A stretch of 64,000 nucleotides of DNA. It comes from Mugil cephalus. Its lineage: Eukaryota; Chordata; Actinopteri; Mugiliformes; Mugilidae. Positions 164 to 29,800 of this stretch are shown piece after piece; position 1 is the first letter of the stretch, and each line of letters starts with the position of its first letter. The notes beneath the pieces are model-generated. The model was not told the DNA's origin. It did not search any database and saw only the letters and a list, made by a program, of their open reading frames with translations. The DNA is taken from contig NC_061777.1 in the NCBI RefSeq assembly GCF_022458985.1, forward strand, positions 18,813,668 through 18,877,667, given 5' to 3'. The translations under genes and the position numbers were made by a program.

Positions 164-10711
<10,548 letters not shown>

Positions 10712-14299: not shown

Positions 14300-15188
<889 letters not shown>

Positions 15189-17043: not shown

Positions 17044-20000
17044 ATGCTAGCAACAAGGACTTTGCTGTCAAAACAAACCCTGGCTGTTCTTTCTCGTCAG
17101 CCTGCCTGCTTTGTGCACCACGGTGACTATGGCAACTGGGGGAATACCAATATTGCACTGGTAAGTGAAACAGATCGATATAGCAACAAGTAGGCAGATC
17201 AGCGTGGACAGTGTGTGATTCGTGAATTGCTGTATTCCAGGTTTTCTCAGGATGTGGATGGTGGGATGGGACTGATGTCCATGAGGGTGTATAGTGAGTA
17301 TCGCAGGAATTTAACCTCACTGACTTAACACATCACAATGCAAAGATGGTAATTCACAACTCTGTCTTCAGCACCATGTACCACCTGAGCCGCAATGGCG
17401 CTCGCTTCCAGATGTTCGCTCCGAACCAGCAGCAGATGCATGTGATTGACCACATGAGGAAGCAGCCCGCCTCTGGCGAGAACCGGTAGGCTTGTCAGGA
17501 ACCGCTGATACTCTGATGGGTCCATTAAATTCCGTTTAAAAGTAGCATTTCTGATTATTTCTGGCTGTTGCGCAGGAACATGATGATGGAGTCAGCTCGC
17601 TTCAGTCACGGTCAGGGAATGATGCAAATGCAGGATCTTTCCAAGCTGGATGTCAACAGCTTTGATGGGGTCATCTTTCCTGGAGGCCATGGGGTCACCA
17701 AGAACCTGTGAGGAGCAATGACACGCGACATACTTCTAGACTGGATCGTGTCAAATAGAGTGGAGTTAGATATACGGATGTTAAAATGAGTACTAATATT
17801 AAACTCTCAACTCTTTAGATCCTCTTTCATTAAGGATGGCAAAGACTGCAAGCTGCACAATGACGTGGAGAGAGTGCTGAAAGATTTCCACCGTTCACGC
17901 AAGCCTATTGGGTATGTATCATTAACTATGGACAATTATGCACTTAAAATGTTGATGTTAAGTGAGGCATTATTGCTTTAAATCAGATTAGATTCAATTA
18001 GATTATACACATTAAACAGTCCCTGTAATGGAATTAGGACACAGGAGAAGCTGTTATTGATGTAGATAAATAAAATCGGAACCACATCTTTGCTGCAGGA
18101 TTAAGTGTTGCAGACCCAGGCGGGCGTTAGTTAGTTAAAAGCAGTACGTTCAAATGTTTACATGCTTTCACGTTGTAAATTTCCTGACGAATTAGCCATG
18201 TCAAACATATGAAATGGACCATTAATGGGCAAATTTGTTTGTACTACAACAGATAGATACAACAGATAAATAATAAATAATGGCTGTACAGTTTAATCTA
18301 TTTGTAAAAATATTCATGATAACATTGAATAACTATCAATAGAATGTGGAGTAAGGCTAGGAAAAATGTAAGAGTGAAACAAACTACTTATTCCTATTCC
18401 TAAATCCTATTCTCATGCCAATTGTTTAAGCTGCAGCATCAGGTGAGAGTCTCCACATCAACTCTCACAGCAGGATTGCAGGTGCAGTGAAAACCTTTGC
18501 ACTTTTAAGCGTCCACTGGCAGACAGGGGCAGACACAAATCCTAACTGTTAAATCAGCCAAGACAGACTAAATACTCAAACAGATGCAGCGTTTATTTAC
18601 ACTGTCTCTGCACCGAGAGGCAGAACTGGTGTGGGACCCCTGGTGGCCAGGTGCAAAACAGCAGGTCAGAGGTGACGGGAGGAGATGGAGGATTACAGCT
18701 ACCAAAGTTGATTAAAGTTGGAAGCAGAGGATGAGGAAGTAGAGGCTGAAGCAGCTGTCACTATGACAGGACTTGTGGTATGTTGGTATGTTTATTTGTG
18801 ACCTACAACCAAAATCATTCTTCTCTACTGCCATTAATACATATGAAGAGTTTGATCCATTAAAGATTATTTTTATCTGTGAAACAATGAACTACTGAGA
18901 ACAACACATGCTAAAATTAAAGGCCATTGTTCTGTTTTGCCAAAGCTAATTGGTGAGGCTAAGTTTGAAACTGATATGTAGACAAAACAGTACATGTCCG
19001 GAACCAGATCATCCTTCTTAAAGCAAGAGATAAGCCGCGGGTGGTAAATCCAACAATTGTCTTCCTGTTTGATTTAGGAGTGTTAAGGACAAGTTTGACA
19101 TTAAATGAAGTTTCTACCACGGTCCCTCAACAGCCAATTGAATTCAGTTGTTTAAATTATTGTACATACGCTTCATATTCATGCTGTAATTTACTTGGGT
19201 ACATCTCCCTCTGAGTTCCTGTCGGGGTAGAAACAGATAAGTCTGCACTGAGCAGGTACATTTACCTGATGGATTATGATGATTTGGTGATTTTCAACTC
19301 CCCAATGTCACAATGACATTTGAATACAATGTCAAGAGAAATGATTTGCTTTATTTTTCATGATAAATAGTTGAACTCAGCTTACTACACATTCTTTAAA
19401 AGTTGTAAATAATGGAATTAATGCTCAAGTATGAAATTAAAAGGAAAAAAAAAACACACCACTGCCTCAAGGTTACACCATGTGTGCCGTAATGTTCAAG
19501 CTGCTGTACCGTTCAAAGATGTGTTTCTTTCAGGTGGTATTTCATCTCAAGTTGTGAGAACCTGTAGTCATGTCTTTGTTAATCCCCGGGCTGATTTGGA
19601 TCTGTTACATCATGTGTGCTTGGCTGCCACTTTGCAAATGTTTTGACAGCAACTCCTTTTCCTGCACAAGAGTCAGGGACTGAAATCCACTTGGTTCAGG
19701 AATTCCTACTTTATCTTTAAGACTCTCTTCCAGGAAGCTGTCTGAAGCTGATCAGTTACAGACTTACTGTTTCTTTGAATTAGAGAGGCCTCCAAGTGAA
19801 ACCTTGCACATTTTATTCCTGTTTAAATCTGATGGCATGTGGTGATCTGGTAGTCTGTAAACTGCCCTCAATGAGTGACTGATGTAACCAGTGCTGTGTG
19901 CTGGGAGAGACGTTCTTTTTCACGGTGCTGAATCTCTCCTGTCTGACACTGGTAAGGCAATTAACCTCACACTCAGATCAATCTCTTAATCTCGATTTAA

Positions 20001-20431
20001 TAGTAACCTCCTCTGTTTCAGACTGGCCAGCATGGCTCCTCTGCTGGCCTGCCGTGTCCTGCCCAACATTGAGGTGACCATGGGCTACGAGCGGGACGAA
20101 AACACCCGCTGGGGGAATTGGCCCAACACGAACATGGTGCAGGCTGTGAAGGGCATGGGAGCTCGCCACAATGTCCGCGAGCCATACATATCCTTTCAGA
20201 GGTCTCTGTCCGCCGGAGATACTAGTTTAAAGTAATAATATCTGTTAATTGGTTTATGATCCCAAATGTAACTTTGACCTTAACCCTTTCCCTCACGAAG
20301 TCTATGTGGATGAGAAGAACAAGGTGGTGAGCACTCCATCCTTCATGTGGGAGACTGACTATCACTATCACTACATCTTTGATGGCATTGGAAACATGGT
20401 CAAACACGTCATGCGCATGTCAACCAAGTGA
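17044..20431 (+). CDS. es1: ES1 protein, mitochondrial GATD3-like class I glutamine amidotransferase-fold protein
   Basis: ES1 belongs to the DJ-1/PfpI superfamily (E. coli ElbB, human GATD3/C21orf33). Seven coding exons, 17044-17160, 17241-17293, 17372-17485, 17576-17707, 17819-17911, 20022-20187 and 20297-20431, sum to 810 nt and give 269 aa. The N-terminus ([20 protein letters not shown]) is basic and hydroxylated like a mitochondrial presequence. The core follows with [44 protein letters not shown] and KPIGLASMAP, and ends [16 protein letters not shown]. The elbow that holds the nucleophile cysteine in ElbB and human GATD3 (CIAP) reads SMAP here, so the Cys is Ser (codon 20029-20031). The last intron is AT-AC, not GT-AG. 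The intron before exon 6 is about 2.1 kb. The 3'UTR has AATAAA at 20872-20877 and 20890-20895. Confidence 0.95.
17912..20021 (+). other. es1 intron 5, 2.1 kb, nothing recognised
   Basis: The intron begins GTATGT and ends CTCTGTTTCAG. I see no ORF of interest, no clear inverted repeats and no recognised transposon within it. It is much longer than the other es1 introns, which are about 80-110 nt. Confidence 0.6.
20188..20296 (+). other. es1: AT-AC U12-type (minor spliceosome) intron, last intron of es1
   Basis: The exon ends with the codons for REPY at 20187. The next bases are ATATCCTTTC, an exact match to the U12-type 5' splice site consensus ATATCCTT. Near the 3' end GACCTTAAC (20276-20284) matches the U12 branch site TTCCTTAAC, with the branch A about 13 nt before the terminal AC at 20295-20296. 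The next exon reads EVYVDEKNK, giving a continuous ES1 protein. No GT-AG pair near here keeps the frame, and direct read-through meets a stop at 20233. With this 109-nt intron removed the whole CDS is divisible by three. Confidence 0.9.
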
Positions 20432-23856: not shown

Positions 23857-26800
23857 CTAGAGAAGTGCCGAGCTGGAGTCAGAGTCTGAATCGTGACCGG
23901 GGGTGAGGCAGGGCTCACGGGAACAGACGGATTCCTGAGCCCGCCTGTACTCTTGATACTCCAGGCGGAGAGCGTTGAAGCGTGCTTCGCTTAGGGAGCG
24001 GCTGTAGCGGCAGCGGGGTGGGTTGAAAACTGGCGGGCTGACTGAGGGAGACGGGCCTGAGGGGTGCATCGGGGACAGGAGATGTGTGGGTGGGTATGTC
24101 ATGGGACAAGCTCAAAATAATCACATCACATGGGATGACCACATGCAGTACCATCACATCAGGCATTACACTCACAATGATACATGCAACAGTTAAGACA
24201 CGGTGGGAATATAAAAGGAATGATTACCTTTCTGTCTCTGGTCCTGGAGGCCAACGGCTTGATCAGACCTAAGTTCCCCTCTGCCTCTCCGATCACCCGT
24301 TTGTGGCTGATCAAACTGTGTGGCCTCCAGGACCTCCGAGTCCACACAGGCATCAGCAGAGTCCCACTCATAACTCTCATCTACTGATGTGTTCCTTCTA
24401 ACGGGATACATAAAACAACCGGTCAGATAACAGTGAGATCATAAGAAACAACAAAAAAATATATATATTTTGGCAACATGAATAAAGCTCTTTCCACCAG
24501 GAGGACACTCCAGTGTGTTTGTTATTCCAGGTGTGGTGGTGGTGGTGGTGGTGGTGGTGTTTCACCTTTTCGCTCTTCTCTCAGGATGCTCCATCTCAGC
24601 TCTGTGCCGCTCGTTTTCCTCTGTGGTTTCCGGGGAGCTGAGCAGAGTGGGAGTGACGGACAGAGACTGTCTGAAGAGACCAGCGCTACCTCTGCCGCTG
24701 CTCTGACTGGCGTAACTGGCCCTACCCCCATCCCTGACCTCCCGCATCTCTGTTTCCCCTCCCCTCCCCATCATCCTGTCTGGCTGCCTGTAGCTCTCCA
24801 CCTCTCTGGGCGGGAAGGGGGCATAGTAAGGTGAGGGCCAGCTAATGCCCCTGGGCAGGTAGGACCTCGGAGGGCCTCTCCTGGCGTCCACGGGTCTCGG
24901 GCTTTCCCGTCTCGACCCTGGCCAGTGCTGGTAATAGGGGACAGGGATGGAGGAGGGCATGGGGATGTATTTATGCTGCGCAGACCTCAGAGTTTCGTGG
25001 TAGGAGGGAGACCACCTGGAGGACTCTGGGAAAACGGCGGCTTGCCGTCGAGGATCAGACGGTTCTAGCAGGGGGGAGGTTGATGTTGGTCTGGGTGGGT
25101 ACATAGGGGTGAGGTAGGAAGGACTGGCTAAAGGTCTTTGTAGGTGATGAGGCCTCTCCATGCTCTCCATGCTGGGGCGCCTGAATGGGACATACTCCCT
25201 CCAGGAAGGGCCTGGCCTGGGGAAGGAAGCTGGCGTGCGGCCCAAACTGTAAGATTTCACTCTGACATCTGGGTTTGGGAACTCGTCCCAGTAGCACCTT
25301 TCAGATATATAAGTCCTCGGGGTCTCAAAGTGCTCCCACCTCTGCGAGCCTAAGCTGATGGATTTCTTTAGGAAAGGCTGAGGCTGCCCCATGCCTGAGA
25401 GGGTCCGACAAGGGCCTATGCTTAAGGATTTCCTTAAAAATGGCACAGGCGCTTGAGTTATTCGCGATGCAATGTTATTAGCTCTGCTGCCCTGAGAAGC
25501 ATGTCTTTGGGATTGCTCGGAGGAAAGCTCACTGTTGTCTACAAAACTGTGTGTGTGTTTCGACACTATGTCCGCCATGCCTTTAGCTGCGCTGAACAAG
25601 GTGTGAGCCGACCTGGATCCAAGTCTGGATTCAGGCATGTCTGGGTTTTTATGCCCAACTCGAATTTGTGTTTTTTCATCATGCAGCTGCTTGCTAGTTT
25701 TTTCTGGACCGGGTGAAAATGGTCTTTCGTCGTCAGGAAATCGTACTCTAGCTTCAGCATGGAGGGAACGTTGGCAGCCTTGTTTTTTACTAGCACCTAG
25801 GCTGACTTCTGCAGCACCCGCGAGGCGAGCCTGATCGAAGGAAAGCTCTTGTTTTGAACCAGGTTCCTGGTTTTTCTGAACGTGAACCTCCCAGTTTTTA
25901 GGAACAACATCAGGCTTAGCCACCACAGAGTTATCTGGCTTCAGCTGTGAACTTTGTCCAGAGGTGCCTGTTACTTCAGCTTCTTCAACCGGTTCATCTA
26001 CGCTCATTTCGATGAAGCCTGGAAGACTGAGGTATTCGAGAATTGCACTTGTCTGTAGTGGGGACACACTGGGCGAGGGTGCTGCAGGTTTTTCCTTGAA
26101 GGAGTCAGACATTCTGGGGACCAAAAATTGAGACTGGTCACCGTTATCTTCTTCAACAAGAGTTAAGGTGGTGATAGGACTCGGACTGTCAGAGAAAAGA
26201 CACCGGTCACTCCTCCTGGATCGTGTGCGGACGCCTTCTCTCTCTAACTCAGGGTAAAACCCTGAACTTCGTCGGCCGTCCTGAGTCTCACTCTTTCTTG
26301 TCTCTCTATCTTTGGCCTTTGCCCCCACTTCATGATGTTCATAGGGTAAGGTAGAATAACTAGAGGGGCTGGGATGCCTTGTGGCCATGGGGTCTACGTC
26401 TGCAGTTCTTTCAGGCTGATTATATTGTGCAGAAGCTGAACTTTTAGGTCTCTCGTCAGGACTTCTGGCAGATGAATCCCAGGGCTGAGTGCTTGTGTAA
26501 GCATACGAATGTCTGGACCTTGAAGCAACACCTCCACCCTGTGTCTTTTCTGTTAACCCCTGGTCAGTGATAGCTGTCACGCACATGTCAGACGTTCTCT
26601 GAGGACTCAATGACCTGGCTCTGTCTGGTGTTTCTAAACACAGACCTGGGGTTTCAGTGGTGACGTCAGGGGACAGCATGGGGAGGGAGGTGTTCTGGGT
26701 GACTGGAGAGCGCGATGAATCAATAGCAAGAGAGTCTTGTGTGGCTTCTCTACATGTGCGGGGATGTGGTGACCTGGGCGACGTGGCCTCCCGAGGACTC

Positions 26801-29800
26801 TGCACAGGAATGAGGCTGGTGATGGATGAAACGGGGCTAATGTCCCATTGTATGCGAGACGTAGGGAGCCGGTCCATGGGACTGCTGGTGCTGCCAAAGT
26901 AGCACGCCTTCCTATATTCAGATACCCGACTTGTCTGACCTGAGGACCTGTGTTTCTGTCTTATATTAACATCTAACGGCTTCCAAACAGGCTCCTCCTC
27001 TGACTTGGGTGAATCCCTTTGAGGGCTTTGTGTTGTTTTACACTTATGCTCATCTCTCCCACGACTGCGGCTTCTTTGATCGGCCGTGTAGATCTTCAAC
27101 TCTCTCTCCATTTCTTCCCTCTCTTTCGCTAACTGGACACACTTGTTAATACTGTCCCTGTCCAACCCACTGTCAAGTTGTGAGACCAGGGTGCTGTTAT
27201 CAGTCAACTGACTCTCCATCGGCTGGTAGCCTGAATGGTGTGCTCTCTCTCTGTCTCTATCCACGAGCTTTGTTCTTCTCCCCAAACTGGGGAAAAGGTC
27301 TTCAGCGTGGCCTGGCATGCGATGCCTCCTCAGAGAATCACTGGGCTTTTTCTCACTGTTGTCCGAATAAAAGCTGGCTCTTTCCAAAAGAGCCTCTGAG
27401 CCTTGCTCATCGTCCGAATAAAAGCAGCCGTGACGGGAGAAGTTTCTGGCCATGGCCCGCACTCTTCCAGGGGAAGAAGGAGGCCTGCTCAGCTCTGGGA
27501 CGTCCACGGTGAGAGGAGAATCCTTCCTCTCATCCTTATCTGAGCTCAAAATGCTTGACTTCGGAGAGTCCCGGAACGATGTCCTGGCGCTCCCTGAGCC
27601 ACTAGCCCCACCGTTGCTTTGCAGGACGTCCTTTTTCGCAGTTTTCCTATTGGAAGGACTGGAACCCTCTGGCAGTGGCTGGACAATGAAGCGGCCATCT
27701 GGGCCTCTGGAAATGGACTCCAGAGCAGTTGGTGAGGGCGCCTGTGACCCCAGGTGACTCTCAAAGAGTGTGTAATGAGGTGGTGGAGACGAGTTGGACA
27801 AGAGCTGCTTCCGCTGGTCGTGGTATTCCCCACGGCTGCCTTTCTCAAAGGAGGATCGGTCAGACTGTGAGGACGAGTTGTTGGGAAAGAAGGGAAGCGG
27901 TGGACAAAGCTTCAACTTCAGGACACTGTCTGGGCTGCGAGGAGGTGAGCGAGATCTGAGAAATGCATAGATGGGGAAAAACAGCTCAAATTAAATGGAG
28001 TTTGTAACTTTACTGTATGTGAAACAGGTGAAAAAGCTCATTTCAAATATCAAATAACAAATAAATCAACTTTTTGTTTCAGAGTGTGAGAATGAAGCTT
28101 TTCGCATTAATATTAAGCATAAATTCCTTTAGAAATAAGATATTTCATTGTTTATGAATTATTACAATCAATGTATGAAACAAGCAATGAGACTTACTCT
28201 TCAGAAGTGCTCTTCTGGAAGGCAGACGGTAGATCTATGACAATGTAAGAATGGAATAAAATGGGTGAACAACTCCAATCATTCATATAACTTTAGAAAA
28301 AGAAGTGAAGGCAAAACATGGCCCACCTCGTCTTCTCTGTTTGCGTCTACGCTGCCGGCGTTGACTCATGTAGCAGGCTGTCACCAACGAGAGGATGATG
28401 GCAACAAAGAGGAAGCACACTCCTGCCAACACACCGGCTAACAGCGGCTCAGGTATGACCTCCAGGAAACTGGGACGTAGGGGGTAAATCTCCATCCCTG
28501 TAATCACACCCGGGTCAGTAGCTGCTAACGGCTGCTGCTCATGTCATTTTAAGTTAAACAAAGCTAATCACTCACCTGCAGTGGATATATTGACGGACTC
28601 GCTCGGTTCACTGAGTACTTTGTTGCTGCGAGACATCAACCTCAGATCATATGTAGAGTCCTGAGAGAAGGACAGATTAAGGGTTTGATGTATATATAAA
28701 CCAACATGCTTGGAAAGTGCAGAGGCCAATTTAAAGTATCTACAAAACCTTACCCTAAGCAGTCCTTGTACAAGTATTTCACTCTGGTTGGCGTCGATAT
28801 TGCTGTTGAGGATGACCCACTGTCCCAGATCCCTGCGGGCCTGCAGCACATAACCCGTCAGTGAAGACAACAGGACGTGAGGAGGCATCCACTGGAGGAC
28901 AACTCCTTGTCCAGTCCGGTTGGCTGACAGGAGTGTTGGAGGATCCGGGATTGGGGGAGAGGTGACAACTGTAGGTACTTCTGTTGGCACAGCTGGTAAG
29001 AAAGCCCAAGATAAGTTCACACTGATACATATTCAAAGCAAAACAGAATTATAATCAAAACGGGACACATGTCCATTTCGACAAACCTTGTGTTCGCACA
29101 GATACGATTTCACTAAAAGGTCCAGAGCCAAGTTTATTCTGAGGTAGGACGCTGAACTGATAGCCGGTGCCAGCAATTAGCCCCGTCACCAGCAGGTAGT
29201 TTTTGGATGTTGGCACAGGCAAAGACGCCCATTCATGTTTCCCCCTGGACGCCTGCTTGACCCTGAAAAAAATCACAAAAGCCAAAATGAAGACATAGTA
29301 TGTGAGTCATGTTGGTAGGTGAGAACGGATTGTTTGACACTGACCATACAGTGAACTTCTGGGTGAATCCACCATCGAAGCCAGGCACCCAGGACACGTT
29401 CGCCTGGTTCATCTCTGTAGTGACTGACACTGAGGATGCAACGTGAGGACTAGTGCCTGAGAAACAGAAAACAAAACACTTTAAATTTTAACTGTTGACA
29501 ATAGACCCAAAGACATTCAATTTCAGGGGCTGACCCACTCACCCAGCACAGTGACCACAGTGCCTGTACTGACAGTCGCCACACGATTAGTGGCCAAGCA
29601 CTCCCAGCCCCCATGGTGATCTTTGCTGAGGGGCTGCAGCAGGAGGGAGCCGTTAGCCAACACAGCGTACGGCGAACGTGGAGTAGGGCCAATCTGTGAG
29701 GAAGCACAGCAACAGGTTATAATGAGGGATCAGTCAGGCATATCGCCATAGCTCCTCTGTCCTGCTCTCCTGTACCTTGCTCCAGGTTATGTTTGGAGGA

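Follow-up and report, generated by a model that had tools for sequence, protein, structure and literature searches.

A probable U12-type AT-AC intron as the last coding-region intron of es1 in Mugil cephalus

The es1 gene and its surroundings

The window, i.e. the whole 64,000-nucleotide stretch of Mugil cephalus DNA analysed here, lies on C8, one of the 24 contigs making up the 635-Mb genome, and contains on its forward strand a gene with seven coding exons (17044-20431) encoding a predicted protein of 269 aa. Its coding exons, together with the elements of the sixth intron, are as follows, with all positions being those of the window.

17044-17160, forward strand: es1 coding exon 1, an open frame with a GT donor after it
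17241-17293, forward strand: es1 coding exon 2
17372-17485, forward strand: es1 coding exon 3
17576-17707, forward strand: es1 coding exon 4
17819-17911, forward strand: es1 coding exon 5
20022-20187, forward strand: es1 coding exon 6, ending in REPY
20188-20296, forward strand: intron 6 of es1, putatively U12-type with AT-AC ends, 109 nt, phase 0
20188-20198, forward strand: putative U12-type 5′ splice site, ATATCCTTTCA
20278-20284, forward strand: putative U12-type branch site CCTTAAC, with the branch A at 20283
20295-20296, forward strand: terminal AC of intron 6, 13 nt past the branch A
20297-20431, forward strand: es1 coding exon 7 and stop codon, starting with EVYVDEKNK

Introns 1 to 5 all start with GT and end with AG. 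The encoded protein scored 203.9 bits against the NCBIfam model NF008747 (ElbB; cut-off 180), which places it in the ES1/GATD3/ElbB family, and it matched four PDB sequences of the ElbB family, one of which is titled ‘Es1 family protein’; a Pfam search of the product returned no family at an E-value of 0.001. The name es1 was taken over from an earlier sequence-only reading of the window and rests on these ElbB/Es1 family matches, by whose names the protein belongs to the same family as zebrafish cone ES1 and mammalian GATD3A. The zebrafish es1 product is described in passages of PMC4772128 as a factor enlarging cone mitochondria. In addition to the resemblance in family, a primer description in PMC8935817 indicates that mouse Gatd3a, like the seven-exon es1 gene, has an exon 7, which there adjoins the 3′ UTR.

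Upstream of es1, the last part of tmem127 was found at 14736-15185 (forward strand; Pfam TMEM127), and an exon of snrnp200, encoding the U5 200 kDa helicase, at 4183-4521 (forward strand; E about 1e-42). The presence of snrnp200 in the window, which the sequence-only reading had pointed out alongside the intron, was thereby confirmed; this neighbour says nothing on intron 6 of es1. On the reverse strand, positions 24565-27990 stay open over 1142 aa, for which Pfam gave no match at an E-value of 0.001, and a fibronectin type III match under the cut-off is located nearby on the same strand (28571-29032).

Sequence of intron 6 and the exon 6/7 junction

Intron 6 opens with ATATCCTTTC at 20188, in agreement with the U12-type 5′ site pattern [A/G]TATCCTT, and its AT and AC ends are those expected of an AT-AN (A-type) minor intron. 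The full U12 branch-site consensus is TTCCTTRAY; the es1 branch region reads GACCTTAAC, with the core CCTTAAC and without the leading TT, and was counted as close to this consensus. The branch A of U12-type introns is located about 10-20 nt from the 3′ end, and the 13 nt found in es1 fall within this short distance. The ATATCCTT donor, the CCTTAAC element, the AC end and the short branch-to-end distance are shared with animal U12-type AT-AC introns such as that of KCMF1, compared to which the es1 intron is short (109 nt) and is the last in the coding region. Its phase, 0, runs counter to the bias usually seen in U12-type introns, among which this phase is disfavoured according to passages of PMC7367187 and PMC10639083.

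The expected frequency of such motif combinations was derived from 300 order-2 Markov sequences. ATATCCTTT occurs once in the 64-kb window with both strands summed, and the strict ordered set of ATATCCTTT, CCTTAAC and AC was found once on the forward strand and not at all on the reverse strand of the window, where 0.01 would be expected per strand. A middle set (ATATCCTT, TTAAC, AC) also gave a single occurrence in the window, versus 0.26 expected. The loose set ([AG]TATCCTT, TT[AG]A[CT], A[CG]) gave three forward and one reverse occurrences versus 1.35 expected per strand, so that loose matching by itself proves nothing. The strict match coincides with the exact site where homology demands an intron.

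This homology was assessed with the PDB ElbB chains and with an alignment of 82 bacterial relatives, comprising 80 sequences kept of the 567 found by a profile search (profile built from es1, its two intact paralogues and two bacterial ElbB sequences) and two Vibrio sequences; es1 used alone as query against genome and viral contig collections found no relative. Like the bacterial ElbB proteins (NF008747; PDB 1vhq, 1oy1, 5lir), the es1 product is colinear with the family around the junction, and chains 5lir, 1oy1 and 1vhq aligned without gaps over the exon 6/7 boundary, while the match to 3l3b reaches residue 193 only. The bacterial ElbB frames were read as uninterrupted; es1 carries extra residues upstream of the junction (the GNWPNTN region) and two more downstream. 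Between the columns of residues 225 and 226, neither an insertion (0/82) nor a gap (0/82) was found among the bacterial relatives. The first residue of exon 7, E226, occupies a column with E in 49, D in 28, Q in 2, G in 2 and A in 1 of these sequences, so that E or D is present in 77 of the 82, and E is also found in the paralogues on C12 and C5 (C5A). The gapless junction and the E226 column together speak for an intron ending at AC 20296 in preference to AA 20299 or AG 20300, and removal of the intron is predicted to be precise and in frame, in a conserved gene.

The sequence-only reading had further held that only this intron restores the es1 frame. Its removal does yield an in-frame coding sequence of 810 nt including the stop codon, but the claim of uniqueness did not stand as worded: when donors at 20150-20289 were combined with acceptors up to 20344 for introns of at least 41 nt, the frame likewise stayed open to the natural stop with seven GT-AG and ten GC-AG pairs, and with other AT-AC pairs too, e.g. 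when donor 20188 is joined to an AC end at 20272, 20278, 20284 or 20320. With every one of these GT-AG or GC-AG pairs, conserved residues are deleted, foreign residues are inserted, or both. Of nine consensus positions, 5, 5, 3, 3 and 6 are matched by the five GT donors of these pairs, compared to 8, 7, 6, 6 and 6 in the remaining five donors of es1. A nested U2-type pair (twintron) from GT 20202 to AG 20300, spanning 99 nt, was also considered and rejected, as it is not among the frame-keeping pairs. If intron 6 is retained, translation stops within it after 240 aa, which adds 15 novel residues at the end and removes the last 44; provided that no intron follows in the 3′ UTR, such a transcript would have no exon junction past its stop and should escape junction-dependent decay. 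A correct es1 model would need the AT-AC intron, without which these 44 residues are lost or garbled.

Minor spliceosome components, similar introns and assignment of intron 6

The genome carries the minor spliceosome snRNA genes U11, U12, U4atac and U6atac, with one U11 gene (113 bits), at least one U12 gene (123 bits), two U4atac matches (best 105 bits) and three U6atac matches (best 133 bits), all over the Rfam cut-offs; within the window itself, an Rfam scan gave nothing at gathering scores. Four matches to the CCDC84/CENATAC family were found clustered on C8. In human cells, depletion of CENATAC affected 92% of A-type minor introns, as stated in a passage of PMC8280824. The TCCTTT of the es1 donor (20191-20196) can pair with AAAGGG of the genome’s own U11, a pairing length equalled by shuffles in 9% of cases, and CCTT(A)AC can pair with GTAAGG of its own U12 with the A bulged, a length that shuffles equal in 77% of cases. 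Similarly, TCCTTTCA of the donor (20191-20198) can pair with TGAAAGGA of the genome’s own U6atac, the shuffles having covered the U11 and U12 pairings. Such pairing is consistent with a U12-type intron and is no proof of one.

To put the motif into a genomic context, the pattern ATATCCTT N70-100 CCTTAAC N8-14 AC was searched on both strands of the 635 Mb, giving 13 places (12 distinct loci) versus 8 for the reversed pattern, a modest excess that makes the motif by itself weak evidence genome-wide. Flanks of up to 240 nt were judged at all 12 loci, and an open frame runs across the intron in seven of them, es1 included; the remaining five showed no frame continuity, those on the forward strand having been tried with the pattern’s own 3′ end only. 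A family match continues across the AT-AC junction at an E2F locus (E2F CC-MB domain; PDB E2F1) and at a glycyl-tRNA synthetase locus (85 aa without a gap), and at a tandem CCCH finger locus the domains flank the junction on either side. The U12-like AT-AC intron at G000:C4:7259783-7259887 (L001) is followed by an EF-hand over the cut-off and preceded by a PH domain under it, in a gene that we take to be probably a phospholipase C eta. One frame-continuous AT-AC locus, without a Pfam match, is presumably CEP170-like, judged from frame and name. A further U12-like AT-AC intron at G000:C19:7433809-7433914 (L010), with 17 nt between its branch site and its end and a Pfam match under the cut-off, is likewise assumed from frame and name to belong to a kcmf1-like gene. 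KCMF1 is listed as containing an AT-AC U12 intron in a passage of PMC2831892. At locus L006, the AC that suits the frame is one at 10 nt from the branch A and differs from the AC picked by the pattern. The branch-to-end distances of the six other AT-AC examples from this genome are 12, 13, 10, 13, 11 and 17 nt.

Given the 5′ site, branch site, spacing and termini, the junction fixed by homologues, the minor machinery and the similar AT-AC introns of the same genome, it is almost certain that positions 20188-20296 represent intron 6 of es1, the last one in its coding region, and that this intron is U12-type with AT-AC ends. These lines of evidence support the U12 interpretation originally made from the letters of the window, and the extent of the intron (20188-20296), its donor, its CCTTAAC branch element 13 nt from the end and its terminal AC were all found to have been placed exactly. 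By each sequence test made, it appears as a U12-type AT-AC intron with an ordinary mechanism, belonging to a known rare class and not to a new type, and seems slightly unusual in its phase 0 and its absence from the paralogues.

The splicing of intron 6, and the spliceosome responsible, we infer from these features. As in the known minor spliceosome, U11 would bind ATATCCTTT and U12 would bind CCTTAAC in the form of the U11/U12 di-snRNP, U4atac/U6atac.U5 would join, and U6atac would take over the 5′ site from U11. Attack by the bulged A (20283) on the 5′ end of the intron would follow, and exon 6 (REPY) would be joined to exon 7 (EVYVDEKNK). As an AT-AN minor intron, it is predicted to need CENATAC.

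Passages of PMC2831892 and PMC8280824 attest to U2-type AT-AC introns, and the major (U2) spliceosome might in principle remove intron 6 despite its AT-AC ends, as it does some sodium-channel AT-AC introns. However, the U2-type AT-AC introns of sodium channels all have a G at +5 according to PMC2831892, where es1 has a C, and given the full ATATCCTTT and a U12-type branch site 13 nt before the 3′ end such a route is very improbable. There is next to no chance that a GT-AG intron is used instead, the example being 20225-20300: this pair leaves the frame open and has a pyrimidine-rich stretch ahead of AG 20300, but its donor CTAGTTTAA matches only 3 of 9 consensus positions, and the resulting product would contain an insertion absent from all 82 bacterial relatives and from the two paralogues while losing the residue at which 77/82 carry E or D.

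Frequent retention of intron 6, with the 240-aa protein and its 15 novel end residues serving as a working isoform, would fit the stop inside the retained frame as well as the higher retention of short and AT-AN minor introns compared to others (passages of PMC6717393, PMC9501576 and PMC8280824). For the most part, however, the 44 residues that would be lost can be aligned with the family, and we regard such an isoform as very improbable. That the es1 model is a pseudogene or an assembly error, with the motif present by chance, is hardly credible: a broken copy of the family does exist on C5, but the seven exons of es1 join into an open 269-aa frame scoring above the family cut-off, and the expectation for the strict motif set is 0.01 per strand.

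Minor introns of the AT-AC type are few: passages of PMC9501576 count 662 minor introns of any type in zebrafish, spread over 612 genes, and PMC8280824 puts the AT-AC share of human minor introns at about a quarter. A search of article texts found no statement on the U12 type of the last intron in zebrafish ES1 or GATD3A, nor any paper combining C21orf33/GATD3 with U12, U12-type or minor introns. C21orf33 was not found in the main texts of PMC9501576, PMC6717393, PMC2831892, PMC8280824, PMC3564746 and PMC7367187, and neither C21orf33 nor GATD3A was found among the matches listed in wider literature searches. Because gene lists sit in supplements and databases, the intron may well be catalogued already for zebrafish or human. 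Should the intron be conserved in other fish, es1 would join the genes that rely on the minor spliceosome for their output.

Paralogues and origin of the intron

When the genome was searched with es1, three further copies were found, located on C12 (L025) and C5 (L026), the latter contig also holding a broken one (L027). The C12 and C5A copies each have three GT-AG introns with identical phases (0, 1 and 2) at matching places, the third being shifted by a few columns beside a gap, and these coincide with none of the six es1 intron positions. Both copies read through the U12 site of es1 uninterrupted and without a gap. The es1 protein shares 46% and 44% sequence identity with C12 and C5A, respectively, which are 66% identical to each other. 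In a midpoint-rooted FastTree phylogeny of 85 proteins, the three fish proteins formed one group (0.95) with C12 and C5A together (0.92); the fish grouping is provisional, because the bacterial sample was selected by similarity to a C12-headed profile. Zebrafish is described in PMC4772128 as having ES1 and a widely expressed paralogue, which fits the presence of more than one gene copy here. What is new here, as judged from the predicted gene structures, is that the paralogues are without an intron at the U12 site and without any intron position shared with es1.

As neither intact paralogue has an intron at this site, the U12 intron would have arisen by gain along the es1 line or else disappeared from the C12/C5 line, in the latter case together with the other introns, for instance via a spliced copy. 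Gain of minor introns is described as very rare in a passage of PMC10639083, which favours loss in the paralogue line. GATD3A is thought to be of bacterial origin through one early lateral transfer (passages of PMC8935817), and entry of the U12 intron into es1 after its split from the paralogues, in a gene acquired by eukaryotes from bacteria, is a possible but rather unlikely course of events. If true, a minor intron would have been gained at a datable point, which is regarded as a very rare occurrence, and should this copy also be the orthologue of zebrafish cone ES1, a cone mitochondrial gene would thereby have come under AT-AN minor-spliceosome control. The comparison of es1 with its paralogues constitutes a small test case for gain versus loss of a minor intron.

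The degraded gatd3-like copy on C5 (L027; G000:C5:15637800-15641000, about 1500-2450) is located ~37 kb from the intact copy on that contig. It has an in-frame TAG in its first exon as well as other lesions, and its introns are still there, which makes it look like a segmental copy and not a retrocopy.
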